DNA from: Cymodocea nodosa
Taxonomy: Eukaryota; Streptophyta; Magnoliopsida; Alismatales; Cymodoceaceae
Length of the DNA stretch: 64,000 nucleotides
Reading direction: 5' to 3'
NCBI GenBank assembly: GCA_036874045.1
Contig: JAZBRI010000011.1
Coordinates: 2,108,001-2,172,000 of the forward strand
Notes under the pieces: generated by a model
Told to the model about the DNA's origin: nothing
The model's database searches: none
The model's input: only the letters and a program-made list of their open reading frames with translations
Translations under genes and position numbers: made by a program
Shown here: positions 38,040 to 64,000 of the stretch, piece after piece
Layout of the letters: every line of letters starts with the position of its first letter
Numbering within the stretch: position 1 is the first letter of the stretch

Positions 38040-39344
38040 TTATTAGTGTCATCATGTACACACATTGCTCACACCTTCCAACATAGTAGAAGTAAGAGGG
38101 AGAACTATCATGCATTCCTCTACCCAAAGCGACATAGGAAGGAGATTGACGAAATGAGAAAGGGAGGGAGAAGACCAACATTGATCAACCCCTCGAAGAT
38201 GGTACACGAGAGAAGTAGTAAAATAGAGTCACCACCTTATTTTGAGGATTAATAAGGAAACCAAAGAAGGTCCACAGTAAGGTTCTAGAAAATAGGTAAG
38301 GGTTCTAAGCTACTGGTGGGGAAGGTGTTAGACACCCCAATCAGCCTAGGAAGCCTCAACCTCTCTATAGATAAAAGGGGTGGGCAATTTGGCATCTAGG
38401 ACCTTTCTTTGGATTTTCATGCGTGTAGGGTAGAAATTAGGGCGATCTTCTAGGCCCACACTAGTGATGCAAATCTACATCAACATAGACTAAAAAGAGG
38501 CATTCAGGGTCTTCCTTCTAGATTCTCCATGCACATGGGGTGGAGACCAAGGTGAGCACTTGAGGTAATGCCAGCCCAATCGAATCTGCACCAACGTAGA
38601 TGAAATAAGGCATCCATGGTCTTCCTTCTGGATTTCCGTGCACGTGGGTAGAAATCAAGGATAGCACTTGAGATAACATTGTCTAAACCAAATTTGTACT
38701 AATGTAGATGAAAATTGGCAACCAAATAAGTAAAAAGAAAGGTAGATGGAAGGTAAGTGATGTAGGAAGATTAGCACGGGAATCCTATAAGAGAAAAATC
38801 ATCGAGTGTGTTGAAGGACAGTCAAGTTGAGCATTCGACTAACAATCAAACCAGTAAGATGTTATGATTGCAGCAAAGGATGAAAATAGTTAAACTGAGA
38901 CCGCACGATAGATGGTCGAGTTGAATGAGAACATAGTTTAACCAAAGCCTATGATGGTTCCACAAGAAAAGAAAAAAAAATGGTTTCACTGAACTACGAC
39001 GATGGTCAAATCGAAAACCTATCATAGGCGGTCCAACCAAGGGCAAAACACAGTTAGATTGGGCTCTAAGTGGGCTCAACCAAAAAAGAAAAAGGTTTGA
39101 TAGAAGAGAAGAAGAAAAACAAAAGAAATGGCATAGATAAAATGGGGATAGCTTGATTGACCCTAAGATTGGCTATGCGAAGTCGATGGCTGAGGTGGAG
39201 GAAAGACAAAAGCCACCATTGGGAAATCCTAGATAAAGAGCTATAGATTTAGTGGGTTCGTCAACTCCTTAGACTTGGAAAATAGGGTTGTTGGAGTTGG
39301 ATTCTAGGAGCATCCCTCTCCTTTCCAAATACTTAATACACGAA
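38040..39344. other. Non-coding segment of probable retrotransposon origin
   Basis: The text near 38,300-38,345 (GGTAAGGGTTCTAAGCT ... GGGGAAGGTGTTAGACACCC) resembles the LTR/leader phrase common in Tat/Ogre-type Gypsy elements. Downstream come tandem repeats and a stretch rich in GGTTNAACC(G/A)A-like words (38,790-39,080). No gene is seen; frames here are shadows. Confidence 0.45.
38391..38716. repeat. Three tandem repeats of 108-110 bp
   Basis: Units start at 38,391, 38,499 and 38,609, each opening GGCAT(C/T)... and containing CTTCCTTCTGGATTT- and GTAGATGAAA-like phrases. Divergence between units is moderate, so the array is not new. Confidence 0.8.
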
Positions 39345-40860
39345 TCATTCAGCTTTAAAACACCTAATAGCGAAGAAAGAGACTAAACCTAGATTGATCC
39401 GATGGATATTATTATTATAAGAATTTGATCTAGAAATTAAAGATAAAAAAGGTTGTGAGAATGTAGTAGTAGATCATTTATCAAGATTACAAATAGAAAA
39501 ATCAAACATTGAAATTAAGGATAATTTTTCTGATGAATAATTAATGACTATAAAAACAATGTCTTGGTATGTAGATATAATTAATTACTTAGTTATAGGT
39601 TTAACACCTAAGGATTGGAATAGACAATATAAGAAATTGTTCTTTTCAAGAGTACAATATTACTATTGGGAAGACCCATACTTATTTAAGAAATGTCCTA
39701 ATCTGGTTTTAAGAATGTGTGTTTCAGAAACTGAATGTCAAAACATATTGTCTTTCTGCCATGACTAAGCATGTGGAGGGCATTTTGGTTCAGGGAAAAC
39801 TACTGCCAAAATTCTGCAATGTGGATTTTATTGGCCAACACTATTCAAAGATGCTCATAAATATTGCTTAAGTTGTTTAAAATGTCAACAAATAGGAAAA
39901 ATATCAAAGATGATATGATGCTTCTAAACCCTATTGTTGAGGTTGAAATATTTGATGTGTGGGGAATAGATTTTATAGGTTCATTTCCTATGTCTAATCA
40001 ATTTAATTATATATTGTTGGGGGTGGATTATGTATCTAAATGGATAGAAGCTATTCTTACAAAAACTACTGACAACAAAGTGGTAATACATTTTATAAGA
40101 ACTAATATAATTGCCAAATTTGAAATACCTAAAGCTATTATTAGTGATAGAGGAACTCATTTCTGTAATTGAAGTTTTGAAGCCTTAATGAAGAAATATG
40201 GAGTAAATCACAAAATTGCAACATCATATCATCTGCAAACAAGTGGACAAGTAGAAAGTGCAAACAAACAAATTAAGTTAATCTCAGAAAAAGTAGTAAA
40301 TCCTACTAGAAAAGATTGGGCTAATAGATTAATAAATGCACTTTGGGCTTATAGAATTGCTTATAAGACAAGCCTAGGTATATCACTTTTTAGACTAGTA
40401 TATGGAAAAAGTTGTCATTTACCAGCTGAAATTGAACATAAAACTTATTGGGCATTAAAAACTCTGAACACTAATTTAAATCAAGCTGCTGAAAATAGGA
40501 AAATGCAATTGATTGAATTAGAAAAATTTAGGAATGAAGCTTATTCGAGAACTGTAAAATAAAAAGAGAAAATGAAATTCTAGCATGACAAGAAAATTAT
40601 TCCAAAAACTTTTGAAATAGGACAAGAAGTATATCTTTACATGACTAGACTCCATAACCATCCAGGAAAATTAAGATCTAGATGGGCAAGACCTTATATA
40701 ATTTGAAATATTTATTCCTATAGAGCTATTGAAATTGAAAATCCTAAAAATTAGAATATATTTAAAGTAAATGGTCAAAGACTTAGACCTATTCTAAAGA
40801 TTCCAAAAAGTTCCTTTGGAATTATAGAAGTAAGAGTAGAGGACTACTCGAGCTTTACTT
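39345..40860 (+). mobile_element. Athila-like Gypsy pol end: RNase H tail and integrase (fossil)
   Basis: The RNase H tail ends in IKDKKGCENVVVDHLSRL. The integrase shows the zinc-binding block (ACGGHFGS ... CLSCLKCQ), the catalytic core ([32 protein letters not shown]) and the C-terminal DKKI...F.IGQEVYLY..RL...PGKL..RW block. The same layout in the young element at 53,273-57,199 is similar in sequence, so both are Athila-type Gypsy. Fewer than ten breaks are visible; an old fossil. Confidence 0.85.
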
Positions 40861-41576: not shown

Positions 41577-43810
41577 ATGATGCCTAACTTCTAGGAGGAA
41601 GTTGACACCACGAGATTTCTCAGAGAATTAGAAGAATGACATACAAGACAAAAGATCAAGAACACGACACGAGAAAAAGAACTAGAAAAGGTAGAATCTA
41701 ACATCTTCTACTAGAGGAAAGTTTTAGTAGATTTAGATATTAGTATACCTTAGATTGTGGAAACAAGGATTAAAGTAGCAACAAAAGTTGTTGTGAATAG
41801 AGAAAGGAAAATCATGCCAAACAACGAGGTTGCCCTAGAATTAATTTGGCGCAAGTCACGACTCTAGTTTACAAGACCTATTGCTGAACATGCTCGGTGG
41901 GAAATCTGGGAGCAACAAAGAAAAGCAGTGGAAGAGCCTGCAGTTGAAGAGTCGGTAGCTGAAAAATCAGTTACTATAGAACAAGCAGGACCTTCAGTTC
42001 CACCAACAGAACCATTATCACAAGTAACATTTGCTTGGCCAAGAACTAAAGAAGAAGACAAGGAGTTTGCTAACTTGGTCAAAATAGCAAAAGACCAAGG
42101 AGATGATGAAGAAATGGCTATGGCCAAGGCACATATTCTGTATGATGCCATAAAGAAAAGGCAGGCTGAAGAAAAGTTGAGGGCCTAGTATAAAATTAAA
42201 GTACAATAGTATCAAGAAGTAGCTAGATCAATGGCTACAAAAGAAATTGAAGTAGGTCCTTCGAGACTAGTAAGTATAGAAAAAGTAAAACAGGAAGAGC
42301 TAGTACCTATGGCTCGAGGGCCTGTAGAGCCTATTTTTGTAGATTTAATCTCAAAGGAGGAAGACCAAGCACAACTATTTAGAAGAAGGAAAGGAAAAGA
42401 GATAGTGCTTGAAATTCAAGTAGAGATTAAACCTGAGCTTAAAATATCAGTAGGGCCTATAGAGCCCATTTTTGTAGATCTGCTATTCAAATATGAGAAG
42501 GAGTAGGAGTAGTAGCAACAAGAGCAAAGAGAAGAAGAAAAAAAGGCTAAAATTAGTTTGCAACCTATACAAATAGAAGAAATTGAAATTAGGGTAGAAG
42601 CTGATATGCCCGTGACTCCATCCCAATCTGCCACAGAATCAGAAAGAATAGTAACAATGTAGATTGGTAGTCAGGAGGAAGAAGAAAGAGAAGAAACTGA
42701 ATAAGAAGTTGAACAAGAACATATGGAACAAGGAGAAAATGACTCAATAGATTCCACTAAAGAGGGAGAGACTCTTCAGCAACTTTTTTGAGAGAATTTA
42801 AGGAAGAAGAGTAGAGAGTTCTGCCAGCTCTCCACCATAGATAGAAAGAGGAGTTGAAATGTAGGAATCTTTGGATCATTTCCAACAAGCTCAAGTTCAG
42901 CAAATTGAGAAAGAAAGTCAAGAACAAACCCCTCTAGAGCAACAAATTCAAATTCCTAACCTAGCTAAAGCAACAGTTCTAAATGAAGTATACTTTTGAA
43001 GTCAAGAAGCATATAATAAATATTAAGAGATTAGGGGTTATGATATTATATATAGTAGACCAGTAAACTAGGATGGCATGAATGACATTAAAGAATTATT
43101 TGAATTCCAAGGTCTACTACAATTTATTTCTCAACAGAGAGGGCATGTTATATATGAAAATTTAGTGTCTTGTTTTTATGAAAACTTGAGAGAGGAAGAA
43201 GGAAATTTAATTTCTAACGTGGAAGAAGTTAATGTACAGATAACACTAGAGCTTCTCCACAACATTTTTGGAGTGAAAAATGAAGGAATAGAAATTCTGG
43301 AGAGCACAACTACAGTCGAGTAGATAAAATAGGAAATAAAGGACTATTTAGCTATCAATCCTAGTGTGCCATTATTAAACAGATTGAAGTATTTAAATGG
43401 TAAAGCACACATGGTAGCTAACATTTTGATTAAAAATGTCTACCAATGACAAGACCATGATATTGAACTAAGTCAGTTTGTTAAATGGGCCACATATGCA
43501 GTTGTGAACAGAATTCAAATTAATTGGTACAAAGTTTTTATCTCCAAGCTGAGAGTAGTAAAGAAGAAATTATATTATGGAGATCTAATTCCATTGCTGA
43601 TGGTGGACAGTATTGACTTCACGAAATAGACATCTAAGAGGATAAAATCTAGAGCCATTTCAGTGAAGGAATACAGAAATTACAATGCTACAGCTGCTAA
43701 GATAGCTGGACCTTCTAGAGACATTATAGGAGCTATTGAACATATAAATCAGTTAGAATAACTACAAAAGCTCGAGAAGGAAGTAGATGAACTTAGGAAG
43801 AAGGACTAAA
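41577..43810 (+). mobile_element. Retrotransposon accessory ORF, copy B (broken)
   Basis: Downstream of Athila-type pol lies a remnant with an acidic, Glu-rich N-terminal half (repeats around GP(V/I)EPIFVDL near 42,310-42,480) and a folded C-terminal half: ELFEFQGLLQFISQQ, SCFYENLREEEGN, NIFGVKNEGIE, NRIQINWYKVFISKL, KKLYYGDLIPLL. These align block for block with copy A at 771-3,040 (LFEFQGLIKFL, FYNNL, VLGLKNEG, NRIQINWFDVF, KLFYGD), though identity is low. The likely family is the same 'putative plant transposon protein' domain. Athila elements do carry a third ORF after pol, often called env-like. Function unknown; broken many times. Confidence 0.6.
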
Positions 43811-44862: not shown

Positions 44863-46230
44863 ATGAGCACATGGATTCGTTCTCCTAGGACTAAACGATT
44901 AGTAAGAACACCTACACAGGATTATTCAACATAGAGGCGTACTGAAATATTTTCTAAATTAGACTTTAACGAAATCCTTAGGGGTGTAGCTAACCTTTCT
45001 TTAAAAGAGAACGAAGATATGGCTACTCTAGTAGAAAAACCATTAGGAGAAATTCTATATCCTAAATTAGTTGATGAACCTTCATGTATTCGATTGCCAA
45101 ACTTTGAGGGAGATAGGTTTGAACTAAAATCTAATTATATTAGTCAATTGCCACACTTTCATGGATTAGAAAGAGAAGATGCCTATTATTTCCTTAGAGA
45201 ATTTAACGAAGTTTGTCAAATGATGAAAATGTCAAACATGAGTATTGATGCTATTAAACTTAGATATATTCCTTTTGCTTTTAAAGATACAGCTAAGAGA
45301 TGATTATATACTCTGTCGCCTGATTCAATTTCTGCATAGATTGAATTTTACTCTATTTTTTTGGAAAAATATTATCTAATACATCAAATGATTAAAAAGA
45401 AAAAGGAAATATTAATGTGTAGCCAAAAATAGGGAGAATCATTCTAGAAATATTTTGAAAAATTTAAAGATTTACTAACTCAATGTCCACATCATGCAAT
45501 GAGTAAATCACAATTAATAGGTATAATTTATGAAGGCATATATGTTTTAATAAAATCTTTATTAAAATCTATTTATCATAATGGATTTTTAAAACTGTGT
45601 AGTAAAGAAGCACGGACATACTTAGAAAACTTTGCAAAAAGAATTACATAGTGGGAAAACTCAGTTGAAGCTATTACAGATAAAAGAATATTGCCAAGGG
45701 GAATGCATGAAATAGATTCAAGCACTATGCTTGAAGTTAAATTAACTGAATTAACAAAGAAAATAGAAAAGTTATCATTAAATCAAAAGCTAGTAGAAAA
45801 GAATGCAAACATTAATGAGTTAGATATTATTTATACTAGAAATCAGAAAGATAACTTTGGAAATTCTTATAACCCTAATTAGAGAAATCACCCGAACCTA
45901 TCTTAGAGAAATAACAATTTCCAAGGAGGAGAAAATATAAATGACAAAAATATAAGTTATGAAGCATTAATTGAACAAGGATCTAGAATAGAAAAGTTAG
46001 AGAAGATAATTCAACAATTAAACAATCGTCTAGATCATGTATTTGAAAATGTTGCCATTTAAAATCAAAATATGAATAGAAACATACCTCTTAGACAAAA
46101 GGAATCAATAGAAGTTAGACCTACTGGAGGATTGCCAATGCAAGTAATACTAACCTTGTCAATAGAACTGTTAATGAAATTGATACCTCCTATGGGAGGG
46201 AAGCTGAATGAAGCAGCATAACTAAAGTAA
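44863..46230 (+). mobile_element. Athila-type gag region (fossil)
   Basis: It starts near 44,863 and contains the Retrotrans_gag pattern of Athila/Tat elements: FELKSNYISQLPHFHG, EDAYYFLREFNEVC, IKLRYIPFAFKDTAK, then FLEKYY, YFEKFKDLLTQCPHH, YEGIYV, and a C-terminal Asn/Gln-rich part (SYNPN, QNMNRN-like text). Broken in several places. It is followed not by pol but by the F-box-like ORF. Confidence 0.75.
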
Positions 46231-46420
46231 CTATGTATAATATAGTAAGTAGAAAAATATAAAAAGAAAAGAAATGTAAGTTTAATTATAGTTAGTAGTA
46301 TCGTAGAGTTATTACTTAACTCAACGAACTTAGTCCGTTGAGTTATGACCTAACTCCATGAGAGTATGTAAGTAGCTATGTTAATTTTATCTTTGCTTAA
46401 ATTTTTTTTATGTTATACAG
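46231..46420 (+). promoter_or_regulatory. Gag/F-box junction with motif pair and splice-acceptor-like end
   Basis: An inverted pair AACTCAACGAAC / CCGTTGAGTTA (46,318-46,346) is followed by a T-rich run ending in TGTTATACAG (46,411-46,420), which has the form of a plant 3' splice site. F-box-like text starts immediately after the AG. Confidence 0.35.
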
Positions 46421-47293
46421 AATTACAACAGATGGAATTGATGAAATTACACTGTATGCACTAAGGGAAGTACTAAGTAACTTATCAGCTAAAGCTCTGT
46501 GTAGATTGTGTTGTGTCAAAAGAAATTAAAGACTATGTCAAAGAAAAATATTTTCATGGACTACAAGCTGCAAAAATGACTAAGATTAGAGATAGATTTT
46601 TATGAAAGTCATTTAGTCGTAGTTCAATCAGCTATGTATATTTGAATATGGAAGAAACTACTGGAATTCCACCCAATACATTAGAAGGAATAGATCATAT
46701 TATGGGGATAGATAAAGGATTAATTATTTATAGAACCAAACCAAGGTATGTAATTCTGTTATCCGATATTTTGATTAGAAATCCTATCACTAGAGAAGAA
46801 TGGAATATAGGAAGGCCTAATAGATTTGAAATACCAACTGAAAATTGTGGGTCAACTTTAACATTTTTTGATAAAAATTCGATCATTCTTGAAAAATTGT
46901 ATTACTGAAGACCAACTAGAAATTGCAATGAAGATTTATGTTTAAGTTTGTATAATTTTCTAAATAGATTTTGGACTGAAAATACTATGATATATCTAGG
47001 ACAGAAAGCATTAATTAACAATATACATGTGATACTTGATGGATATATATATTTAGTGTCAGATATATTAGTTGCATTTAGATTTGATTTATACATAGTA
47101 AGCATAGACAGTTATGATGATGACTTTATAGAAATATTGCCTATACCTAGTGATATAGCTAAACCACCATTTGCAGAATATGATAAAATTCAATTAGGAA
47201 TGTGGTATAATGATATGATGATCCTACTTTATGTCTAATAAGATGGTGGGATGAATTGATGAAATTTCAAATATGGATTATGAAAGACCTAAA
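46421..47293 (+). mobile_element. F-box/FBA-like cargo ORF, copy A (broken)
   Basis: Close relative of the ORF at 62,976-64,000. A block at the start, ALREVLSNLSAKALCRLCCV, resembles the F-box helix pattern (L..I...L..K.L.R...V). The next part has features of an F-box-associated beta-propeller: GLIIYRTKPRY ... LIRNPITREEWNIGRP, VYNFLNR-like, and MKFQIWIMKD. F-box proteins normally recruit substrates to SCF ubiquitin ligases. The copy is broken, and its right end is cut off where a Sirevirus LTR is inserted at 47,294. Between Athila-type gag and this ORF no pol is present. Confidence 0.5.
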
Positions 47294-48903
47294 TGTTGAG
47301 TATTTTGTTTTGATGATGTGTGTTGAATGAAAATAATCATATTTGCTCAATTACTATTGCTTGTGAAAGGAAATTAAGTACATCAATTAATACAAAAAAA
47401 GCTTATTAATATAAATACGTGTCTGTATTGGATTTGAAATTATACTAAGTTAATAACTAGTCGTTTCATTGCATTAATTTCTCATTTAACTAAACGTTAA
47501 GTTAACATGTGTTTTTATTGAAAAGCACGATATGTTTTTAAAGTTATATCTTCTATATCATGAACAATGCACATTTAGACAACTCGTTAAGTTAGAATTT
47601 TGTTTGTATAGAGGTCACGTGAGAACTCGTTAAGTTAGAGGCTTAAAGGTTAAAATAGGTTACGTGAGAACTCGTTAAGTTAGTGAGTAAAAGAAGAGAT
47701 GAACTCGTTAAGTTAGTGTTGTACACATGGTGAAATTATAAGTTACGAATGTTATATTGTATCATGTGAGGTGCACATGTTTAACTCGTTAAGTTAATAT
47801 AACTAAACGTGTTGAATTGCTATATTGAATACTAAGGCAACGTGTTAGGTTAGCGTTATAAAACTTAAGTTGTTATTTTTGCATGTGGTAAAATTCTTAT
47901 TATAAAAACATTTGTTTATTACTGGTTTGTTGAGTTATCTGTAACACAACGGAGATGGTTTGTTGAGTTAGCTAACACCACAGACTTAGTTCGTTGAGTT
48001 AGCTACAGTACTTGTCATGTGAGTTGGCACATGAAGAACTCGTTAAGTTAGAAATGTTAAGTTATATATGTACTTGTATTACTCGTTTAGTTAACATTAA
48101 AGTAATGACTTCTTATTATACTTGATGAAAAATTTTGGACGAGAAAGTTTATTTTGCAGGAAATTTTTTAGAGATCTAGGATTGATGATTAAAGAAAATT
48201 CGAAATGTAAACATGGGTCAGAACGTGTGTATTTCAATGAAGAAAAAAGAAAAGACGTGAAGAAGTGGAAGATTGATAGTGATTAAACGTGGAGGATATG
48301 CATGAAATGAAGATACAGTATAAAAGGCATAGAATTCTCATTGATCATTTATCCCTGCACACCAAAAGAAAAATCTTTTCAGGGATCAAAAACACATCGT
48401 CGGGGAAAAAGCTCTCAAGTGGAAGAAAATTCAGTGAAGCATAAAAAGGTAAGATATATGTCACTAAAGATTTGAAGTATCAGATGGAAGAAAATTCAGT
48501 GAAGCAGAAATTGTCAGATTTATGTCACTAAAGATTTAAAGTATCAGAAGAAAGCAAATTTGGTGAAGTAGAAAAAGACTAGATATTCGTCACTGAAGAA
48601 TTACTGAAGAAGAAAGAGAAGAAGAAGAAAGATCTCAAACAGGGAGAAATGTTTTAAATTTCATAAATTAGTTTTCTTTGTTTGTAGTTATGAAATTGTA
48701 TAGATGAAACATGGTATCGATATATAATTGCATCTACAATTTCTGAGGAGAATTGAATTGTATATTGTTATTGAAATCTTGAATAAAAATGATTTTATGA
48801 AAATAGTGTCTCGACTTGTTTTTGAATTTTAAAGTTTCAATTATAATCGAAAATGTTGAAAAACACAATTCACCCCCCTCTTGTGTAGCCATACGATCCT
48901 ACA
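47294..48903 (+). repeat. Sirevirus 5' LTR (1,610 bp), plus strand
   Basis: Bounded by TGTTGAGTATTTTG and GATCCTACA. U3 (47,450-48,120) alternates AACTCGTTAAGTTAG-type motifs with CACGTG or near-CACGTG boxes. The TATA box is TATAAAAG (48,319-48,326). Confidence 0.88.
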
Positions 48904-49740: not shown

Positions 49741-50789
49741 CGGTTACCCAGCACGACACTAGAAAACTTGTTTGGATCTCCAACAACGCACTAGAAAAAC
49801 TATGATTTGTTAACTTCTATTTTTACTTAGTTAATTTATCTTTATGCTTATTCTTTTTCTTTTAGAAGTAAACAAACAACCTTTAATACAAATTAGATAT
49901 TAATTCCAATTTGTACTTTAACTGCAAGTGCACAGTGTCTATTATATTAGTGTGCAAGTACAGGCCGATCCCATAGGGAATTACTTAAGAGTTTAGAATT
50001 GTCCGTTTGTTAACAATCAAATTTATATCTTCAATAAGCTCTCCATTGAGTTACAGTTAACTCAACAGATAAAGTTCGTTGAGTTATGGTTAACTCAACG
50101 GACTAACCTCCTGAACTTAAGTTAACTCCACAAGCCTACCTCTTCTTTTCAATACTACTATTTATAGAGGAATTTGGCTAACCATTGGGCGATTCCATAG
50201 ATTGTAAATAACATCAATTAAGCTCTTTAATGTTAGTAAACACTAGATTTATCATTAAGCATACTAACATTCAGATAATTCAAACAGTAACCATTAAAAT
50301 CTTTAAGTCTTTTGAACGAACCAATTTCAGTAAACTGTAAAATTAAAACAAACATAAATCAATCACAACACTAACAAAGATAACATTAATCACGATACAA
50401 CACAAGCAATACAACACTCAAATACAAAATACAAACACAGATAAGTTGTTTTTGGTATTTTTGTTTTAATATGAACATGGAAATGGGTGAAAGGTGAAAT
50501 GTAAAGTAATCTCAATCGATAGTAAATACTTCCGTCACTACATACGATGCGATTACACCACTGAAAATTTAACCACTTACAATTCTGTCTCCTCTCCCTA
50601 TAGAATTGCGAGTCCAAAATTGGAAGATGATCTCTTTAGCATACAGGCATCAACCCGAAGTCAAGGCTAGAAGCTTTACGATCTCCTGAGATATGAGTCA
50701 GCGCTTGGTGAAAATGGCTTCCCTTCCCATAACGCGATCACTCCTCACAGTGGTTGTCAGGCACTGTGTTTGGCTCGGAATCGACCCGA
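49741..50789 (-). mobile_element. Left part of an older Athila-type LTR, minus strand
   Basis: On the minus strand a degraded tRNA-Asp-like primer site (TAGTGCGTTGTTGGAGATCC, near 49,770-49,793) sits just inside a TG...CA-type end near 49,809. The text TTTAACTGCAAGTGCACAG ... CCATAGGGAATTAC mirrors the end region of the young Athila LTR. Inverted TAACTCAACGGA-type motifs occur at 50,045-50,105. The young Athila element is inserted at 50,790, and the LTR appears to continue at 60,207. Confidence 0.5.
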
Positions 50790-51482
50790 TGTTCAAGCTT
50801 TAATTTTGCCCATTTTTAATGAATTTTATAAGTAATTTTGCATGATATTATATATCTATGATGGATAAATGATATTAATTATGGGTAATATAAGTCTTGA
50901 AATATAATGCAATATAGAAATTTAATTAACAAGTGCATCCCCCATTAGATATAATTTTACATGGAACACATTGATTTATTTTGCATGTCCTATGTTGGCT
51001 AACGTCTCTTGGAGTTCAACTTCCATTAATTGTAGGTAACATATATATGGGAGGAGCTTAATGCAAAAGACCAAAGAAGATGTAAAGAATTAAAAGTTGG
51101 TGGACTAAACTTTAAAGAAGAGGACATGCCAACACCTTATTGGCCCTCCTAGATCTATGGCATCTTATTGGCTTGGTGATAAAACTAAGGTGCCACATCA
51201 AAGAGAGAGAAGACAAAACAACATAAATACAAGGGGAGAGGAATTTCGGCCAATACCTTGGTGCTTCCAACGAGAGAAAGAAAGAAGAGAAGAAAGCTTG
51301 GAGGTGAGGCTTATGCTTGCAAGGAGACCATCCATTGATGCTATTCACCATTCCAAGGGCTAAGGAGAAGACGTCCAAGCTTGGAGGTGGATTTGCTGCC
51401 AAGTTCCATTGAATTCAAAGCTCTAGAGAAGAAGATAAGAAGCTCCTAAGGTAGTGACAACTCTTAGAGTTTATTATTTTCT
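50790..51482 (+). repeat. 5' LTR portion of the young Athila element
   Basis: It matches 58,671-59,363 almost perfectly, including the CATAAATACAAGGGG TATA region. Forward and reverse frames in it, repeated at 58,993-59,283, are LTR shadows, not genes. Confidence 0.9.
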
Positions 51483-51640
51483 TCTCTAGAGCTTTGAATT
51501 CAATGGAACTTGGCAGCAAATCCACCTCCAAGCTTGGACGTCTTCTCCTTAGCCCTTGGAATGGTGAATAGCATCAATGGATGGTCTCCTTGCAAGCATA
51601 AGCCTCACCTCCAAGCTTTCTTCTCTTCTTTTTTCTTCAC
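51261..51640. repeat. Large LTR-derived foldback
   Basis: The LTR segment at about 51,280-51,435 recurs as its reverse complement at about 51,484-51,640 (for example GGAGACCATCCATTGATG against CATCAATGGATGGTCTCC), with a loop of roughly 50 bases containing the palindrome CTCTAGAG at the turn. The arms are nearly identical. Confidence 0.88.
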
Positions 51641-52133
51641 TTTCATGTTCTAATATGTTTCTTTCTATGGTTTTTCCAGATCTTAAGATTAAATTCACGT
51701 TTTTATCTACATTAGAGTCTTCTTCATCATCTATGACAATTACATCTTCTTTTTGTTGTAGGAGCTTAGTGGCAACATAATAGCTATCTCCTAACTCTAT
51801 GATTCTCTCTATATTCCTCATGGACTCTTCTATAGAACTACTACTAACATGAGAGCAATCACAAACATCATTTCTTTCATCAATATGAGATTTATGCATA
51901 TCAAAATCGTAATAAAATTCACTAGCATCATGCAAGACATCATATTCATCACTAACATGAGTTGTTTCTTCTACTGGTTGAATTTTTATATTAAATAACT
52001 TGCTGGTACATATGCTTTCATCATGACCTTTTACATGGCAATAAGAACAAGCACTTTCAGATAAAAAATCATTTATAAACTTAAAAGGATCATCATGATG
52101 AAAATTTGACATACTTGAAAGAAATTTAAGCAA
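51549..52133 (-). mobile_element. Gag-like segment of the young Athila element, minus strand
   Basis: It reads MSNFHHDDPFKF from 52,133, with a zinc-knuckle-like CSYCHVKGHDESIC, an acidic linker and the LRSGKTIE phrase that marks the gag C-terminus in Athila/Tat elements (usual form TLRSGK). It runs opposite to the pol frame. Its last ~30 codons are LTR-derived. Only part of a usual gag is recognisable. Confidence 0.6.
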
Positions 52134-52236
52134 TAAAATTCACAACTAAGCACAAGAAAGATATGTTTATCAAAATTTGTCAAACAACCAACTAAGAACT
52201 TCAAATATGGTAAAAATAAACTAAGCCAAATTGCCA

Positions 52237-52255
52237 ATCCTCGGCAACGACGCCA
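52237..52255 (-). other. Primer-binding site, tRNA-Asp type
   Basis: The minus strand reads TGGCGTCGTTGCCGAGGAT, close to the Athila site TGGCGCCGTTGCCGGGGA. It lies a few bases inside an LTR end at 52,262, confirming that this block is in reverse orientation relative to pol. Confidence 0.8.
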
Positions 52256-52261
52256 AAAACT

Positions 52262-53229
52262 TGTTAAGCTATATTTTTAGCTCAAGCTTTACTGCAAGTG
52301 CACAATTCTTTTGGTGTACATGGCAAATACAGGTCATTCTTCCACAAGGATTGTGTTTATGACTTAATCAACTATTACTCAACTTGTTCTTCAAGCTCTT
52401 AGGTATACTTCAGTAAATTAATGACATGTGAATGTAGAGTAATCAAAGTTAACACAAGCTCACAAATCATGCAATTTCAAGGCAATTTGTAGTGGAAAAT
52501 GGTGATGTGAATCAATTTCTTTACTTGTAAATCTATCAACTCATTCAATTATAACATGCACACAAGTTCCACGTGATTTCAGAAGTGATATCAATGCATC
52601 AATATTAAGGAAAGAAAAATAAAACAACAAGGTTCAATAGACTATACTACTCTATTCTAATTTATACTAAATGCATGCAACTATGCTATTTGCTAATCTA
52701 GCTAAACTATACTATACTACTTGCATTAGAAATTCTTTTTGGAGATTGATTAGGACAAAATGTGATCTATATAAGATATAACAAAATCAATTAACTACTG
52801 AAATTAAAATTAACAACTAGATATAAGTGATAGGTTCTTCATTCAAATGAACATCAACACTTATTTTCTTCTTCTTTCAATTCACACCTTCTTCTCAAAT
52901 GCGCCAAGCCACCATTGATGAGTGTCATTCACTTGTGTGAAAGCCTCACCAACAGCCCCAACAATACATGTGAATAGAGGATGCAAATTAGAAGTTGAAA
53001 AGAAGAATTAAACATTCATATACATTCATTGAACTCTATCTAGCTAAGAAGACATATAATTGAGATGTTCACCACCATTTCTCATCAATTCTTCCTTCTA
53101 TACAAGAAAATAATAAACTCTAAGAGTTGTCACTACCTTAGGAGCTTCTTATCTTCTTCTCTAGAGCTTTGAATTCAATGGAACTTGGCAGCAAATCCAC
53201 CTCCAAGCTTGGACGTCTTCTCTAGAGCT
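52262..53229 (-). repeat. Reverse-oriented LTR portion inside the young Athila element
   Basis: It is the reverse complement of the 3' LTR's right-hand part (about 59,250-60,206): CACAAGTGAATGACACTCAT, the ACATGCAATTATAACATG region and the terminal GAGCTAAAAATATAGCT are all present inverted. Together with 51,484-51,640 it shows that LTR text occurs twice in reverse in this leader region. Confidence 0.85.
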
Positions 53230-53272
53230 TTAAAAACAAAGTGAAGAAAACGTAGATGAAAAGGAAGAAAAT

Positions 53273-56200
53273 ATGTTGACAAGAGATGAACATAAGGATG
53301 TAGAACTAGAACATGAAGGAGTTGAACTTGAAAAATGTCTAATGGATGAAACTAATGAAGAATTAATTGAAGAAAACCCTGTTATAGACTTAGAAATGGA
53401 TAAAAAGAAAGAAGAAACATCTGAAAATATGAACAACAAACCACCATTTCCTAGTCGGCTTGACAACAACAAAGAAAATGAGGAAAATGAAGCTATAAGA
53501 ACCATATTTGAGAAAATCAATGTTAATATGCCTATGTTAGAATTAATTAGAAAAATTCCAGCATATGGGAGGGTGCTTAAAAACCTTTGTACCAAGCATA
53601 GGAAGCCAAGAAAAAAATTAAGTAAGCAAGTTTATTTAACCGAGTTAAGTAGTTCAATGTTGCTTGATAGTTTAGCTAAAAAATTCAATGATCCTGGTGT
53701 TCCTCTAATAACTTGCTTAATAGGGAATGTTTTAATTGAAAAAGCATTATTAGATCTTGGTGCAAGAGTTAACGTGATGCCAAAACACTTATATGAACAA
53801 TTGGAAATCACAGGAATTAAGAAAACTAGAACACTAATTAAACTAGCTGATAGATCATATAGGAGTCCCATGGGTATTGTAGAAGATGTCTTAATTCAAA
53901 TTGAAGATTTTATATACCCAGCCGACTTTATCATTTTAGAAACCAATGCACCAACTTGTGAACCAAATGAATCTACATTGATCCTAGGGAGACCATTCTT
54001 AGCAACTATTAATGCCCACATTAATTGTAGAAATGGTAAAATGTCAATCTCCTTTAACAATAAGGTGATATCATTGAACATTTTTAAAAGAGATAGGACT
54101 ATAAACCATCAAGTAGATGACAACATTAGTGTAAGCATTTCTGAATTATTTGAAGAAGTTGAAAATAGTAGTAATGAGGAAGAACTTAGTGCTGAAATTT
54201 GCTTTCTAGACGTTGAAGATAATCTAGAACACAAGGCATCGTTACAAGAGAATAGTGGTGAGCATGAAATGAATAATGACTTGATTTTAGAAGTTAAGGA
54301 AAGGAATAAATTAAAAGCACTCCCACAAAATTTGAAATATGCATTTATAGATAAGCAAAATGAATATCCTATTATAATTGGAGCAAACTTAATCCCAAAC
54401 CAAGAAGAAAAATTAATGAAGATATTAAGTAAAAACAAGAGAGCTCTTGGTTGGCAATTGAGTGATATTGTAGGAGTTAGTCCCACTATAGTTCAACATA
54501 GAATTATCCTAGAAGATGAGAACTATGCCTTTAGAGAACCTCAACGTAGATTAAATCCCCAAATGAGTGAGGTGGTAAAGAAGGAGGTAGTTAAATGGCT
54601 TGACAATGACATTATATACCCTATTAGTGATAGTAGGTGGGTAAGCCTTATGCATGTAGAACCTAAGAAATCGGGCTTTACAGTAGTTGAAAATCAAGAT
54701 CATGAGTTAGTGCCTACTAGAATAAAAACTAGTTGGAGGGTATGTATTGATTATCGTAAATTGAATTCTGCAACTCGTAAAGATCATTTCCCATTGCCAT
54801 TTGTTGATCAAATGTTAGAAAGGTTAGCTGGACATGAATTTTATTGTTTTCTTGATGGATACTCTGGGTACAATCAAATACCCATAATCTCTGAGGATCA
54901 AGAAAAGACTACTTTTACTTGTCCAAGCGGAACCTATGCTTTTAGGCGTATGCCTTTCGGTTTATGTAATGCGCCTGCAACATTTCAAAGATGCATGGCA
55001 GGAATTTTTTATGATATGAATGAAAAATTTTTAGAAATTTTCATGGATGACTTTTCTGTTTTTGGCAAAAATTTTGATATTTGTTTACATCATTTAGATA
55101 TGGTTTTGCAAAGATGTATTGAAAAGAATTTTATTTTAAATTGGGAAAAGTGCCATTTCATGGTGAATGAAGGCATAGTTCTTGGGCATGTGATATCTAA
55201 TAGAGGGATTAAGGTGGATAAAGCAAAAATTGACGTCATATCTCATTTGCAGCCACCTAAATCTGTTAAGGAGGTTAGAAGCTTTTTAGGACATGCTGGT
55301 TTTTATCGTAGATTTATTCATGATTTTAGCAAGATAGCAAGACCTATAACTAATTTACTTGCAAAAGATTCTAAGTTTGTTTTTGATGAACATTGTCTTG
55401 CTGCCTTTAATCAACTTAAGCATGCATTAATATCTCCTCCTATAATTCATGCCCCAATATGGGATTATCCTTTTGAAATTATGTGTGATGCCTCCAATTA
55501 TGCAGTAGGTGCAGTACTTGGGCAAATAATTGATAAGAAACATCATGTCATATGCTATGCTAGTAAAACTTTGAATGAAGCTCAAGTAAATTATACTACC
55601 ACAGAAAAAGAATTTCTTGCTGTTGTTTTTGCTCTAGATAAATTTAGATCATATTTAGTTTGCAATCAAGTTATTGTGCATACTAATCATGCAGCTATTA
55701 AACATTTGATGAGTAAAAAAGATGCAAAACCAAGATTAATTCGTTGGGTTTTATTGTTGCAAGAATTCAACATAGAAATTAAAGATAAGGTTGGAAAAGA
55801 AAATTTAGTTGCTGATCACCTCTCTAGATTAGAAAATATTCCAGCATGCAATAATGTGATTAATGAAAAGTTTCCTGATGAGAGTTTATTTCTAGTTGGT
55901 AAGTTACCTTGGTTTGCAGGCATTGCTAACTATCTTGCTACAAGGTTAATACCAACTGATTTATCTAAACCAGATAAGAAAAGATTGAGGTACATGGCTA
56001 AACATTATGTTTGGATGGAACCTTATTTGTATAAAATGGGTTCTGATCAAATTTTAAGAAGATGTCTTCCTGAAGATGAAATTGCTAATGTCTTAAATTT
56101 TTGTCATAATCATGCTTGTGGAGGTCATCTTAGCCATAGAAAAACTTCTTTGAAAATTCTTGAATGTGGATTTTATTGGCCTTCTCTAATTAAAGACTCT

Positions 56201-56794
56201 AAAGATCATTGTAGACATTGTGATAGATGCCAAAGAATGGGAAAAATTTCCAAACGAAATATGATGCCTTTGAATCCTATCATTGAAGTTGAAATTTTTG
56301 ATGTTTGGGGCATTGATTTCATGGGACCATTTCCCATTTCTTTTGGTTATTCTTATATTTTGTTGGCTGTTGATTATGTTTCTAAATGGATTGAAGCTAT
56401 CCCAACTAAGAGAAATGATGCTAAAGTTGTTGATTTTCTTAGATCTAACATTTTTGCTAGATTTGGTATTCCAAGAGCTATAATTAGTGATAATGGACCT
56501 CACTTTTGCAACAGAGTATTTCAAATGGCTTTGAGGAAGTATGGGGTTACTCACAAGTTAGCAACACCATATCATCCTCAAACAAGTGGGCAAGTTGAGG
56601 TATCCAATGGACAAATCAAGCACATGCTCGAAAAAGTAATCAAACCAAGTAAGAAGGATTGGGCAGAAAAGCTTAATGATGCACTTTGGGGTTATAGGAC
56701 TGCCCATAAAACTGTGTTGGGAATGTCACCATTTAGAGTAGTTTATGGGAAAGCATATCATTTACCTATAGAAATAGAACATAAAGCAGAATGA
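53273..56794 (+). mobile_element. Athila-type pol polyprotein, open for 1,173 codons
   Basis: Domains in Gypsy order: aspartic protease-like region at about residues 145-260 (LLDLGARVNVMP, Asp161); reverse transcriptase about 430-640 (WRVCIDYRKLNSATRKDHFP, FRRMPFGLCNAPATFQRCM, catalytic FMDD at 590-593); RNase H about 730-850 (MCDASNYAVGAVLGQ, Asp739, ending ENLVADHLSRLE); integrase with zinc-binding His945/His979-type HHCC block (HACGGH ... DHCRHCDRC) and catalytic Asp1015, Asp1073, Glu1109 (D-D-35-E spacing). It lacks a chromodomain, as Athila does. The FMDD variant is common in plant Gypsy. The length of open frame, beside decayed neighbours, fits a recent insertion. Confidence 0.92.
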
Positions 56795-56812
56795 GCTATT
56801 AGAACATTTAAC

Positions 56813-57199
56813 ATGTGTGTTGATGATGTAGGAAAAGCAAGAAAATATCAACTCAATGAGCTGGAAGAAATAAGAAGAGAGGCTTATGAAAATGCAAAGA
56901 TTGCAAAAGAACGAGCAAAAGCATTCCATGACAAGAAAATTTTGAGAAAGGACTTTCATGAGGGACAAGAAGTTTTATTATATAACTCTAGATTACATTT
57001 GTTCCCTGGAAAATTTAAGACTAGATGGACAGGACCATTCATCATTAAACATATATATAATCATGGAGCTATAGCTATAGAAAATTGTAAGACAGGATTT
57101 AAAACTGTAGTGAATGGTCAAAGACTTAAAGAATATTATCTTGGAAAAACCTACAATCATGGAGAGAGTGCTTTGTTGTTGGAACCCAATTATAATTAG
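56813..57199 (+). mobile_element. Integrase C-terminal region of the young Athila element
   Basis: It contains KARKYQLNELEEIRREAYENAK, then FHDKKILRKDFHEGQEVLLY, RLHLFPGKFKTRWTGPFI and VNGQRLKEYY, the standard C-terminal tail of Athila/Tat integrase. It follows the long pol frame directly. Confidence 0.88.
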
Positions 57200-58670
57200 T
57201 TTTTATATGTACTTAGTTGTAGATGTAGTTTTTCTTTTCTTAATTTTTAGTAATTTTTCATTATATGTATTATTGTGTTAGTAGTTAACAATAAAATTGA
57301 TTATTGCAAGTTCACATCTAAATTTTATATGCATGATTTTCAAACACTTGAAGGGTGTAGAATGGGTTGAAAGACTTTATCATTATATCATGTGTTTGTT
57401 TGACAAATTGATGTTCAACCACAATTAGAGTTAAATACATTTTATCTACACTACTTGAAGAGCAATGCACAACAGGTATGCACTAACATTTTTCACTTAT
57501 TCTTATTGTTGAAACAATCCTTTCTACATTGAGGACAATGTAGGAACTAAGTGCGGGGGGGGAGGAGAAAGTAAAAAAATGTTTTAGGATGCATACTATA
57601 GCAATGAAATTGAAAATTTTCCAAATGTAAGTTTCTTTCACAAGCAGGTTGGTGGTAAGTTTGAAAATTCGTTCTGTATGTTGCATGCCACCATGTTTTA
57701 TGTGTATCCATGATAAGAACTTGCATGTCAATTTTTTTTTTAGGAAATAGCTTTGTTAGTTTAATTTTGATTTTGAATTATTGCATCTTAGCCTTACTAG
57801 CATGCTACTCAATCTCCATTGTATGCTCTTAAGGTTAAGATCATTAATTCTTTATTAGTTTTAGCTTTGTTTTCATTTAAACTTAATTTCTTTTTGTGGC
57901 ATGTTGAATTTTCCTTAGTAATGTTCTTTGCTTATGATGTCTTACACTTAGAGCTGAGCTTATCTTTAAGGTGAGGATAGGAATATGCATTTGAGATGCC
58001 AACCATAGTTTCTTACTTATAACATATACACATTCTTGCACTAGACTCTTAATCATGTGGTATCTAGAGGACTCTTCTTATGACATGAATCTTGAGGAGT
58101 GGCTTAGGAAATCTTTCCAATAGGTTGTTCCATGAGAAGGGTAGATATATGAATTTGGGAATAAGGTTTGATACCCGTTCTCATAAGGTTGCTGGGGACG
58201 GAGGCTAAGTAACCTCTTAGTCTTCACGTGTAAACCCTTTATAGGAGGTATCCTAAGGGTAGTGGTAGGATGTGAGAAAAGAGAGGTTTCAAAAAAAAAA
58301 AAAAAAAAACTCAATTGAAAATAAAGGGGCAATGTACTAGAGGATAGAAGCCTAAAGAAACCTTCATGTATTCTTGGATTAAGTGAGATGAACCTAGATG
58401 CTATTGATTATGGGTCTAAGCACTTTGCACTTAATAGTATCTTAAAAACTTATTTTCCTTAGGTTGGCATTAGATGTCTATTCTATATTCCTCACCATTA
58501 CATGAACTCAACTTGTGAGTGGAGATTATCTATAAGTATTGTTGCATTACTTGGTGAGAATTTAATTTGCCTTAATTTTCTTTATTGTGTTTGTTTGTTT
58601 AAAAGGGGTTCCTTAATCTTTTCTTCTTTAAATTTTGCTAGAGGACTAGCAAAGTTTAAGTGTGGGGGGG
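57200..58670 (+). other. 3' non-coding region of the young Athila element with two G-runs
   Basis: No ORF is recognisable between pol and LTR. TACATTGAGGACAATGTA (57,525-57,542), a near palindrome, is followed by GTGCGGGGGGGGAGGAG, a phrase common to Athila-like elements. A second tract, AAGTTTAAGTGTGGGGGGG (58,652-58,670), abuts the 3' LTR and is the primary polypurine tract. A poly(A) run lies near 58,291-58,309. Confidence 0.8.
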
Positions 58671-60206
58671 TGTTCAAGCTTTAATTTTGCCCATTTTTAA
58701 TGAATTTTATAAGTAATTTTGCATGGTATTATATATCTATGATGGATAAATGATATTAATTATGGGTAATATAAGTCTTGAAATATAATGCAATATAGAA
58801 ATTTAATTAACAAGTGCATCCCCCATTGGATATAATTTTACATGGAACACATTGATTTATTTTGCATGTCCTATGTTGGCTAACGTCTCTTAGAGTTCAA
58901 CTTCCATTAATTGTAGGTAACATATATATGGGAGGAGCTTAATGCAAAAGACCAAAGAAGATGTAAAGAATCAAAAGTTGGTGGACTAAACTTTAAAGAA
59001 GAGGACATGCCAACACCTTATTGGCCCTCCTAGATCTATGGCATCTTATTGGCTTGGTGATAAAACCAAGGTGCCACATCAAAGAGAGAGAAGACAAAAC
59101 AACATAAATACAAGGGGAGAGGAATTTCGGCCAACACCTTGGTGCTTCCAACGAGAGAAAGAAAGAAGAGAAGAAAGCTTGGAGGTGAGGCTTATGCTTG
59201 CAAGGAGACCATCCATTGATGCTATTCACCATTCCAAGGGCTAAGGAGAAGACGTCCAAGCTTGGAGGTGGATTTGCTGCCAAGTTCCATTGAATTCAAA
59301 GCTCTAGAGAAGAAGATAAGAAGCTCCTAAGGTAGTGACAACTCTTAGAGTTTATTATTTTCTTGTATAGAAGGAAGAATTGATGAGAAATGGTGGTGAA
59401 CATCTCAATTATATGTCTTCTTAGCTAGATAGAGTTCAATGAATGTATATGAATGTTTAATTCTTCTTTTCAACTTCTAATTTGCATCCTCTATTCACAT
59501 GTATTGTTGGGGCTGCTGGTGAGGCTTTCACACAAGTGAATGACACTCATCAATGGTGGCTTGGCGTATTTGAGAAGAAGGTGTGAATTGAAAGAAGAAG
59601 AAAATAAGTGTTGATGTTCATTTGAATGAAGAACCTATCACTTATATCTAGTTGTTAATTTTAATTTCAGTAGTTAATTGATTTTGTTATATCTTATATA
59701 GATCACATTTTGTCCTAATCAATCTCCAAAAAGAATTTCTAATGCAAGTAGTATAGTATAGTTTAGCTAGATTAGCAAATAGCATAGTTGCATGCATTTA
59801 ATATAAATTAGAATAGAGTAGTATAGTCTATTGAACCTTGTTGTTTTATTTTTCTTTCCTTAATATTGATGCATTGATATCACTTCTGAAATCACGTGGA
59901 ACTTGTGTGCATGTTATAATTGAATGAGTTGATAGATTTACAAGTAAAGAAATTGATTCACATCACCATTTTCCACTACAAATTGCCTTGAAATTGCATG
60001 ATTTGTGAGCTTGTGTTAACTTTGATTACTCTACATTCACATGTCATTAATTTACTGAAGTATACCTAAGAGCTTGAAGAACAAGTTGAGTAATAGTTGA
60101 TTAAGTCATAAGCACAATCCTTGTGGAAGAATGACCTGTATTTGCCATGTACACCAAAAGAACTGTGCACTTGCAGTAAAGCTTGAGCTAAAAATATAGC
60201 TCAACA
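58671..60206 (+). repeat. 3' LTR of the young Athila element (1,536 bp)
   Basis: Starts TGTTCAAGC and ends CTCAACA, with a TATA-like CATAAATAC near 59,104. It is the only complete, uninterrupted LTR of this element in the window. Confidence 0.92.
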
Positions 60207-61365
60207 CCTGACATCAAGAAAGTATCCTCATAGACCTCCGATGGTTGATGATTGTGGTGGTGGTAACGATGGTTGGTGTGGTACTTTGGAGAATTACCGA
60301 TACTGCCTACAGAAAGCTCGGTGCTCCTCCTTTATACACATTAGCCATCAATCGATCACACACCCACACTTTACTTCTTTTTCTTCTTTTCTTTTATATT
60401 TCTTCAGTGGTAACTGCTTCTACTTGAATGGTCGGTTGGATTTCCTTCATTCATATCAACAACGATGCTTTCTTCTCCCTACGCAATACATGCAATCGTG
60501 ATTTTTCTTCTAATTGTCTTGTTTCTACAACCGCTATAGTGGCATATTAGAAAATAAATAGTCCGTGGAGTTACAGATAACTCAACGGACTTTCTTCATT
60601 GATTTAACTATAAAACACGTGCATAAATTTAACTATCCGATGCGTAGGTGCATTTCAGATACTTATAAACTTAACTATCTAATGCCTAGATGCATTTCGG
60701 ATAGTTACAGATAACTCACCGATATATAACTTAAGTAAATCTACTAGATCTCGACATGTGTTAGCAGTAGTTTAATAATAAAATACACATTTCGGAGAGT
60801 TACAAGTCTAACTATCCGATGCTCAGATGCATTTCAGATAGTTACAAATAACTCATCGAAAATCCACTTAAGTCACTTTACTAGAACATAACACGTGTCC
60901 ACAACTATTTTATAAATAAAAAGAGATTTCGGAGAGTTACACATATAACTATCCAATGCCCAGCTGCAATTTCGGATAGTTATAGATAACTCACCGAAAG
61001 TTCACTTAAGTCATGCATTATGGTTTCGACACGTGTACTTCAGGAAATAATAAACTATTCTTTCAAAACATAACTGTTCGGTAATTTAAACATAACTACC
61101 CAATACATGTTCGGTCTGTTAAACATAACTATCCGAAATATCAGAAAATTCGGATACTTAAGAATTTCATAGCCTGCAACTTACCAACAGTTCAAAAATG
61201 TACAAAATTGACATTAATTCCCCAAAATTAAGCAGATTCTTTAATTAAAGCATATAATAGTGCAATTATAACATAATGGCTTAATTCTCATATGATAAGC
61301 TAAATATTAAGTAATTAACAACATAATGGCATTGTTATCATAAAAATATATATTCTCTATGTTTT
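60207..61365 (-). mobile_element. Right part of the older LTR interrupted by the Athila element
   Basis: On the minus strand, a U3 with at least ten TAACTATCCGA / TAACTCACCGAAA motifs (60,560-61,150) leads to a TATA box (GTATAAAGGAGG, about 60,327-60,338). The outer edge (61,265-61,365) matches 20,063-20,168. The sequence is the continuation of 49,809-50,789 across the Athila insertion. Frames at 60,241-60,501 are shadows. Confidence 0.55.
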
Positions 61366-62975: not shown

Positions 62976-64000
62976 TTAAGAACATGATTCAAAAGTAGGA
63001 ACAAATGGAATAAATGTATCAGTCCAAGCAAACTTTTTAGGCATAGTTCTTCTTGCTATTAATTCTGTTTTAATGTAGTTCTTGTTCCTTCTTAATTTGT
63101 AAACGTGTAATATATTATAAATTCCAAATACAAGTGTATTACCATTAATGATATGAAATGCAGAAAGGGATCCTTTTTGGTTCCAGGGTAATGTAGTAGT
63201 TTCTATTTCTACATCTATTTCAATATACTCCTCTTCCCACTTCCATTCATTAATGTCTTTCATAATCCATATTTGAAATTTCATCAGTTCATCCCACCAT
63301 CTTATTAGACATAAAGTAGGATCATATTCTTCATTATACCACATTCCTATTTGAATTTTATTAAATTCTGCAGATGGTGGTTTAGCTATTTCTCTCGGTA
63401 TAGGTAAAATTTCTATATATTCATCATAACTGTCTATGTTCACTATGTATAAATCAGATCCAAATGCTATTGATATATCTGTGACTAGATATACATATCC
63501 ATCAAGTATGACATGCGTTTGGTTAATTAATGATTTCTGTCCTAAATATATCATAATATTTTCATTCCAAGATCTATTCAGAAAATTATACACACTTAAG
63601 CGTAAACCTCTACCCCAATTTCCTGTAGGTCTCCAATAATATAATTTTTCAGGAATTGTAGAATTTTTATCAGAAAATATTAAAGCCGATCCACAATTTA
63701 TAGTTGGTACTTCATATCTATTAGGTCTTCCTATATACCATTCTTCTCTTCTTATAGGATTTCTTATCAAAATATCAGGTAATAAACTTGCATACCTTGG
63801 TCTCGTCCTGTATATGATTAATCCTTCATCTATCCCCATAATATGATCTATTCCTTCTAATGTATAGGGTGGAATTCCAGTAGTTTCTTCCATAGCCAAA
63901 TATTCATGGTTAATTGAACTACGATTAAATGACCTCCATATGAATCCATCTCTAATCTTAGTCATTTTTGCAGCTTGTAGTCCCTGAAAATATTTTTCTT
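62976..64000 (-). mobile_element. F-box/FBA-like cargo ORF, copy B, open and running off the edge
   Basis: The frame is open from the stop at 62,976 to at least 63,965 (329 codons from the first Met), and similarity to copy A continues past that Met to the window edge, so the true start is outside. Numbering from that Met, residues 1-25 (MTKIRDGFIWRSFNRSS) resemble the end of an F-box domain. DHIMGIDEGLIIYRT, LIRNPIRREEWYIGRP (about 66-81), VYNFLNRSWNENIMIYLG, VILDGYVYLVTD and FQIWIMKDINEWKWEEEY match the running order of F-box-associated beta-propeller domains (GL..Y....NP.T.EW; hVvldG.lYwl; iWvmkdy..W). It is followed by Athila-type 3' signals, so it is probably retrotransposon cargo. An F-box role is inferred, not proven; an unknown element-specific protein is the alternative. 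Confidence 0.55.

Follow-up and report, generated by a model that had tools for sequence, protein, structure and literature searches.

A selected F-box gene inside an Athila-like Ty3/gypsy retrotransposon family

The open reading frame at the right-hand end of the window (the whole 64,000-nucleotide stretch analysed here, G000:C11:2,108,001-2,172,000, from a genome of 374.6 Mb in 28 contigs, probably a plant's to judge by its content) is almost certainly an F-box gene carried by an Athila-like element. On contig C7, a copy of this element is a single insertion with the F-box gene inside a Ty3/gypsy, Athila-like retrotransposon, and comparison of many copies shows purifying selection on the gene in the replicating lineage, as strong as that on integrase, together with neutral decay after insertion. 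We consider it fairly probable that the gene encodes a selected receptor of the SCF type from which the element benefits.

The frame lies on the minus strand and is truncated by the window end. An earlier note on this DNA had put its length at 329 codons or more; in the window it has 340 open codons ending in a stop at 62,976-62,978, and genomic sequence beyond the edge (L001) extends it to 381 codons from stop to stop, or 378 from the first Met (MELMQL...) at G000:C11:2172112. The N-terminal 38 codons, and with them nearly all of the F-box domain, sit outside the window. The motifs quoted in the note (GLIIY...NPIRREEW, VILDGYVYLV and FQIWIMKD...W) are present in the frame.

62976..63998, minus strand: C-terminal 340 codons and stop of the F-box/FBA ORF (from frame reading, genome extension and Pfam)

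The complete protein begins MELMQLLLNALREVLSNLSAKDLCRLCCVSKEIK, and its N-terminal part matches the Pfam F-box profile PF00646 at 29.4 bits (cut-off 20.5); further copies score 35.6 and 37.8 bits and a more distant copy 43, and the match is listed for all eight open copies of one alignment. The plant F-box consensus commonly includes a tryptophan, which is missing from the SKEIK stretch of this F-box. For the C-terminal part, the F-box-associated profile FBA_1 is listed at E<1 in six of the eight open copies; in individual copies it reaches 13.5 and 18 bits (cut-off 21.1), with no match listed in a third. TIGR01640 (F_box_assoc_1) is found at E<1 in all eight (best E 1.6e-8), and in L009, the sole copy with a printed score, it stands at 24.2 bits, below the curated cut-off of 37.9. 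These matches, short of the curated FBA cut-offs in the copies whose scores are given, point weakly but consistently to an FBA-like C-terminal part. The earlier identification of the ORF as F-box/FBA is thus borne out by profile for the F-box and more faintly for the FBA part, and it was a good guess since the window piece of the ORF alone matches FBA_1 at E 0.058. A structure model (3 rows, from the window alone) has a mean pLDDT of 35.9, with strands at meaningless confidence. No homologue of the protein was found at E<=0.001 in a set of 5.8 billion proteins (1,413 candidates), and a sequence search of the PDB gave no relevant match.

The C7 copy (G000:C7:3,693,348-3,710,775, minus strand) has LTRs of about 2.28 kb at both ends and an identical 5-bp flank on either side. 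Right after the 5′ LTR comes the primer-binding site (PBS) TGGCGCCGTTGCCGGGGA, which we take to be of the tRNA-Asp type, and a purine tract (PPT), GTATGGGGAAG, stands immediately 5′ of the 3′ LTR. Between the two lie a zinc-knuckle-like ORF, protease, reverse transcriptase (RT), RNase H and integrase, then three env-like/Athila-type ORFs, the capsid part of gag, its C-terminal part and finally the F-box ORF, 1.8 kb from the 3′ LTR. LTR pair, PBS, PPT and 5-bp target-site duplication are therefore all present in this copy, and because the insertion can be followed from target duplication to target duplication, the F-box gene is inside the element. Several C7 frames are broken. ORFs of sister copies match RVT_1, RT_RNaseH, Integrase_H2C2, rve and Retrotrans_gag above the Pfam cut-offs; protease, which falls below its cut-off, completes the Ty3/gypsy order protease-RT-RNase H-integrase. 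The 5′ ORF has a CxxC stretch that is zinc-knuckle-like by eye. A Pfam scan covered two of the three env-like ORFs, one of which has no credible match, and the Athila-type profile PF20167 scores 18.8 and 20.9 bits where its cut-off is 45. The earlier note had spoken of an Athila-type carrier: the gene does lie within a Ty3/gypsy LTR element, and we keep the name Athila-like provisionally, for the apparently tRNA-Asp-type PBS and the sub-threshold PF20167 match.

The two LTRs differ by about 7% in the C7 copy and by 5-6% in a copy on C12, where a single base distinguishes the two 5-bp flanks. Substitution rates of 1.3e-8 or 7e-9 per site and year are used for dating, and give LTR ages of ~2-3 and 3.7-5.3 million years, respectively.

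A protein search of the 375-Mb genome places the main family at no fewer than 119 near-full-length positions on 19 contigs, a lower bound given by the places scored among 6,675 first-look candidates. Amino acid identity is 89-94% over about 340 residues (the query copy itself being 100%), and at least 119 places at this identity show that the frame is not a product of chance. No stop interrupts the match in 26 of the 119 places, and at least one does in the other 93. The same search did not find a host donor gene; its 119 scored candidates of 6,675 were all at 89% identity or above, a range in which distant genes are invisible. A separate genome-wide look at F-box sequences gave 4,219 first-look candidates, and of the 150 scored, at least five are places of this element family.

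The window also holds a relative of the gene. The earlier note had located it at 46,421-47,293; it is real (46,405-47,294 by tblastn, 70% amino acid identity over the first 270 residues) but broken, being interrupted by stops and by a frame disturbance in its F-box. It belongs to a second subfamily with at least 40 places including the window's own, the other 39 at 92-93% DNA identity; this, too, is a lower bound, from the places scored of 4,485 candidates. The lists for the two subfamilies have no place in common on the six contigs compared. Genome-wide searching for copies, proposed in the earlier note, has thus turned up two sets of dispersed places, and neither outcome that it had set against its own reading (no F-box/FBA match, or host-only copies with unrelated flanks) was found. 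Upstream of the 46-kb F-box, on the same strand, lie the gag, the env-like ORFs and the RNase H-integrase of the second-subfamily element:

39295..40580, plus strand: RNase H-integrase of the second-subfamily element
41601..43758, plus strand: env-like/Athila-type ORFs of the second-subfamily element
44935..46149, plus strand: gag of the second-subfamily element, comprising capsid and C-terminal parts, immediately 5′ of its F-box ORF
46405..47294, plus strand: broken F-box/FBA ORF of the second subfamily, 70% amino acid identity (tblastn)

The 3′ LTR of the element that carries the window's main-family ORF has been split by a later insertion:

60206..61337, minus strand: upstream part of the 3′ LTR, same element as the F-box ORF (matches C7 4,386-5,600 at 79-91%)
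50790..60205, no strand assigned: later insertion in the 3′ LTR, a different gypsy-type element outside the F-box element (limits inferred from the breaks in the LTR match)
49751..50789, minus strand: remainder of the 3′ LTR, split off by the later insertion (matches C7 3,365-4,391 at 91%)

The extreme LTR start with the PPT junction has no match at 60206..61337. The inserted gypsy-type element is younger: its pol frame is open for 1,186 codons and its direct repeats (at 50,790 and 58,671) are 99% identical. The stretch looks rearranged, since it contains a 961-bp inverted repeat of 99% identity (52,262-53,222 and 59,246-60,206). Within the LTR, positions 60651-61036 consist of tandem units of about 137 bp, and short stretches related to these units are seen again in the spacers that flank gag and F-box.

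An unexpected feature of the element is the place of its gag. In all six main-family copies in which both were read (C7, C15, C14, one C12 copy, C11/L026 and the window's own copy in L031), the capsid domain lies 3′ of the env-like ORFs, and the same holds for an older copy in L024 and for the window's second subfamily. The C7 copy has about 0.65 kb between 5′ LTR and protease, without a capsid domain. The element departs from the usual gag-pol layout, with capsid 5′ of pol, and the capsid adjoins the F-box instead; a gag beside the F-box, as the earlier note had supposed, is present, only 3′ of pol and env rather than in its usual 5′ place. L035 and L036 have pol, env-like ORFs and F-box, with no gag between the env-like ORFs and the F-box.

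Coordinates alone give a similar picture. When 100 listed of the 298 exact matches to the PBS were compared with the 150 scored gag places, the right strand had 11 pairs no more than 20 kb apart and the wrong strand none; the distance from PBS to gag start was 6.4-8.8 kb in seven of them, 0.9 and 1.5 kb in two, and 10.7 and 18.6 kb in two. From the same 100 listed of 298 PBS matches, five right-strand pairs with an F-box were obtained (9.8-11.3 kb in four, 4.0 kb in one) and one on the wrong strand. Besides the query copy, gag pairs with main-family places twice at 1.6-1.9 kb and once at 10.3 kb; gag and F-box places pair three times at 0.9-1.5 kb and twice at about 10 kb (one of these on opposite strands). 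Chance would give 1.1 gag-family and 1.4 gag-F-box pairs within 12 kb, and these lists (the best 150 gag, the best 150 F-box and the 119 family places) are too small to support any fraction. Copies were mostly picked by F-box similarity; among four gag copies chosen independently of their own F-box ORF (the second copies in L024 and L038, the 46-kb copy and L045), the F-box adjoins gag in three. Two irregular pieces were seen along the way. At L038:1053-2479, gag and its C-terminal part run into an LTR start, with neither a purine tract nor an F-box, and this is a recombinant or nested piece. At L027:1043-2573, four successive LTR-start motifs, three of them preceded by a purine tract, suggest tandem or recombined LTR ends.

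Gag and F-box also occur together without the rest of the element. L045 consists of an LTR end, a PBS, gag (0.9 kb from the PBS) and an F-box that is cut off where the sequence piece ends; neither pol nor env lies between them. Because its leader joins three segments of the long form, L045 is a deletion derivative. Two more places in the genome match practically the entire leader at 90%, both junctions included, and at one of them an F-box match lies 2.35 kb from the leader start, as in L045. On the simplest reading, the gag and F-box derivative seems itself to have been copied. L044 carries a separate deletion that removed the env-like ORFs.

The earlier note had also proposed a Ka/Ks comparison of open copies. 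To provide a neutral spectrum we took 285 single-copy changes from 1.2 kb of non-coding element DNA 3′ of the ORF in 21 copies, from which 79.9% of coding changes in the F-box ORF are expected to be nonsynonymous (N) rather than synonymous (S), and stops to make up 8.2% of all changes. Singleton changes in 23 copies fit this expectation (161 N, 49 S, p 0.26 against neutral), as do singleton stops (18 of 228 changes). Changes found in two copies number 43 N and 15 S. For those present in at least three copies the counts are 39 N, 32 S and 2 stops, a departure from neutrality at p 2e-6; shared changes in this last class differ from singletons in their N:S ratio by Fisher's test (p 8e-4). Between the main family and the 46-kb subfamily, 72 of 117 changes are nonsynonymous where a fraction of 0.80 is expected (omega-like value 0.41, p 4e-6). 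On the same scale RNase H-integrase stands at 0.42, capsid at 0.49, the C-terminal part of gag at 0.35 and an env-like ORF at 0.29. The NG86 dN/dS between subfamilies is 0.35 (bootstrap CI 0.23-0.55). Codon-position counts for this deep F-box pair (39/30/48) are not significant (p 0.13), and the F-box domain alone gives 0.44 from 41 codons, too few to judge.

Before these counts, the L024 row, a duplicate of L009, was removed, and a copy was used only if at least 60% of the stretch aligned in a single locus. Ranking copies by protein similarity may favour conserved ones; such a bias would act alike on singleton and shared changes and leaves the 46-kb window copy unaffected. Selection is thus seen in shared and between-subfamily changes, and the idea that the ORF is cargo in decay fails; the singletons look neutral.

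How might such a gene have come to be there, and what might it do? Most likely its source was a host F-box gene, taken up before the divergence of at least two subfamilies and retained since as the last gene of an Athila-like Ty3/gypsy element, where one uninterrupted frame encodes an F-box plus F-box-associated-like protein. In SCF ubiquitin ligases, F-box proteins that carry an F-box-associated domain act as substrate receptors. By analogy, the N-terminal F-box is predicted to dock on host SKP1/ASK and CUL1 and the C-terminal domain to bind a substrate, so that the element would make its own SCF substrate receptor. The substrate might be a host factor that holds the element in check, such as an ARGONAUTE or a component of RNA-directed DNA methylation, in which case the protein would act as polerovirus P0 is thought to; we put forward such an anti-silencing target only tentatively. 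A fuller scenario, in which movement of the capsid gene to the 3′ side created a two-gene cassette with the captured F-box, probably expressed apart from pol, the receptor removes a host silencing factor and stripped derivatives spread as the family profits from both products, is doubtful as a whole.

Other explanations have to be weighed against a receptor of benefit to the element. Plants have hundreds of F-box genes and 4,219 first-look candidates were counted here, so the ORF might be one of many ordinary host genes stranded amid retrotransposon debris, and LTR-associated F-box retrogenes do exist, one 'LTR-gene' being known from Thlaspi arvense (PMC8764390). We give this next to no credence, and for this family it is refuted by the C7 copy, which holds the gene between target duplications, by the distance of 9.8-11.3 kb from PBS to F-box in four of five pairs and by the spread of at least 119 near-identical places over 19 contigs. 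Nor does the gene look like a passive passenger, a captured host fragment copied along without function: plant LTR elements are known to capture genes, usually present in one or few copies (PMC7264820), and single copies do decay neutrally after insertion, but purifying selection equal to that on integrase, and the retention of the F-box in the gag and F-box derivative, largely refute this reading and leave it very improbable.

Selection on the protein could, however, have other causes. The main rival is that it acts on the element itself, in the turnover of Gag or Pol or in limiting copy number. This would fit its position beside the capsid gene, the F-box ORF being found 3′ of gag wherever the DNA there was read, in the short form too (the exception is the second L038 gag, which runs into an LTR); L035 and L036, which keep the F-box ORF without gag, speak against it, and we judge it unlikely. 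It is more improbable still that the F-box motif serves protein stability or partnering with no active SCF ligase. That reading would draw on Brassica yellows virus P0, which is stabilised by contact with SKP1, a contact not directly required for suppression (PMC6593998), and it sits poorly with an FBA-like C-terminal part of the kind present in plant F-box proteins. A selected receptor acting for the element accommodates these observations best, in our view.

That selection kept the F-box gene working while the family spread suggests that it helps the element in dealing with the host. Here, then, is an extra ORF with a recognisable biochemical handle, predicted SKP1 docking, kept by selection and present at 119 or more and 40 or more places in two subfamilies, and the use of the host ubiquitin system by a retrotransposon against silencing becomes directly testable. 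There is a practical side as well: genome annotation may count element F-box sequences as host genes, and simply counting the F-box genes of this genome would give too high a figure because of element copies.

Several known systems resemble parts of this one. TR-GAG elements are non-autonomous LTR elements with LTR, PBS and gag and without pol, as is the short derivative described here, which differs by the F-box ORF beside its gag. Athila-lineage Ty3/gypsy elements with 3′ env-like ORFs are alike in the apparently tRNA-Asp-type PBS and the sub-threshold PF20167 ORF. They are alike also in having sense ORFs between pol and the 3′ LTR (PMC7264820, PMC11728184), whereas the element here adds an F-box/FBA-like gene and has its capsid 3′ of pol and the env-like ORFs. 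The function of extra ORFs in plant LTR elements is mostly not known (PMC7264820). In Phalaenopsis, Gypsy elements have captured an AlkB m6A demethylase, proposed to reflect host surveillance of transposable elements, and the accompanying screen of 121 angiosperm genomes passed 15 uncommon domains through its filter (PMC9289625); the likeness is that of a large Gypsy element fixing a host-derived regulatory gene, with a different domain and mechanism.

For the F-box itself we found one partial precedent as an extra ORF. A gene-duplication study in Thlaspi arvense describes one 'LTR-gene' of the F-box/leucine-rich-repeat family, alike as an F-box-family gene tied to LTR-retrotransposition; it is a single gene, and the portion of that paper drawn on here describes no multi-copy selected element gene (PMC8764390). 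The word 'F-box' does not occur in the main texts, supplements aside, of PMC7264820, PMC11728184, PMC11963269 and PMC9289625, and the open literature searched gave no plant LTR element with an F-box extra ORF in many copies. In function, the closest parallels are the host F-box protein FBW2, which brings down AGO1 (PMC9035678), and polerovirus P0, an F-box or F-box-like protein that also brings down AGO1 and whose contact with SKP1 seems to serve stability (PMC6593998). All are F-box or F-box-like proteins, likened here by function with no homology implied, and the one described here differs in being encoded by a retrotransposon. VANDAL anti-silencing proteins are likewise products of an extra plant-transposon ORF that counter silencing (PMC11728184), although VANDAL is a DNA transposon and the effect is sequence-specific and not that of an F-box protein. 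Set beside these systems, what is probably new here is an F-box domain in a probably captured, selected host-type gene of a multi-copy plant gypsy element, together with the unusual position of its gag.
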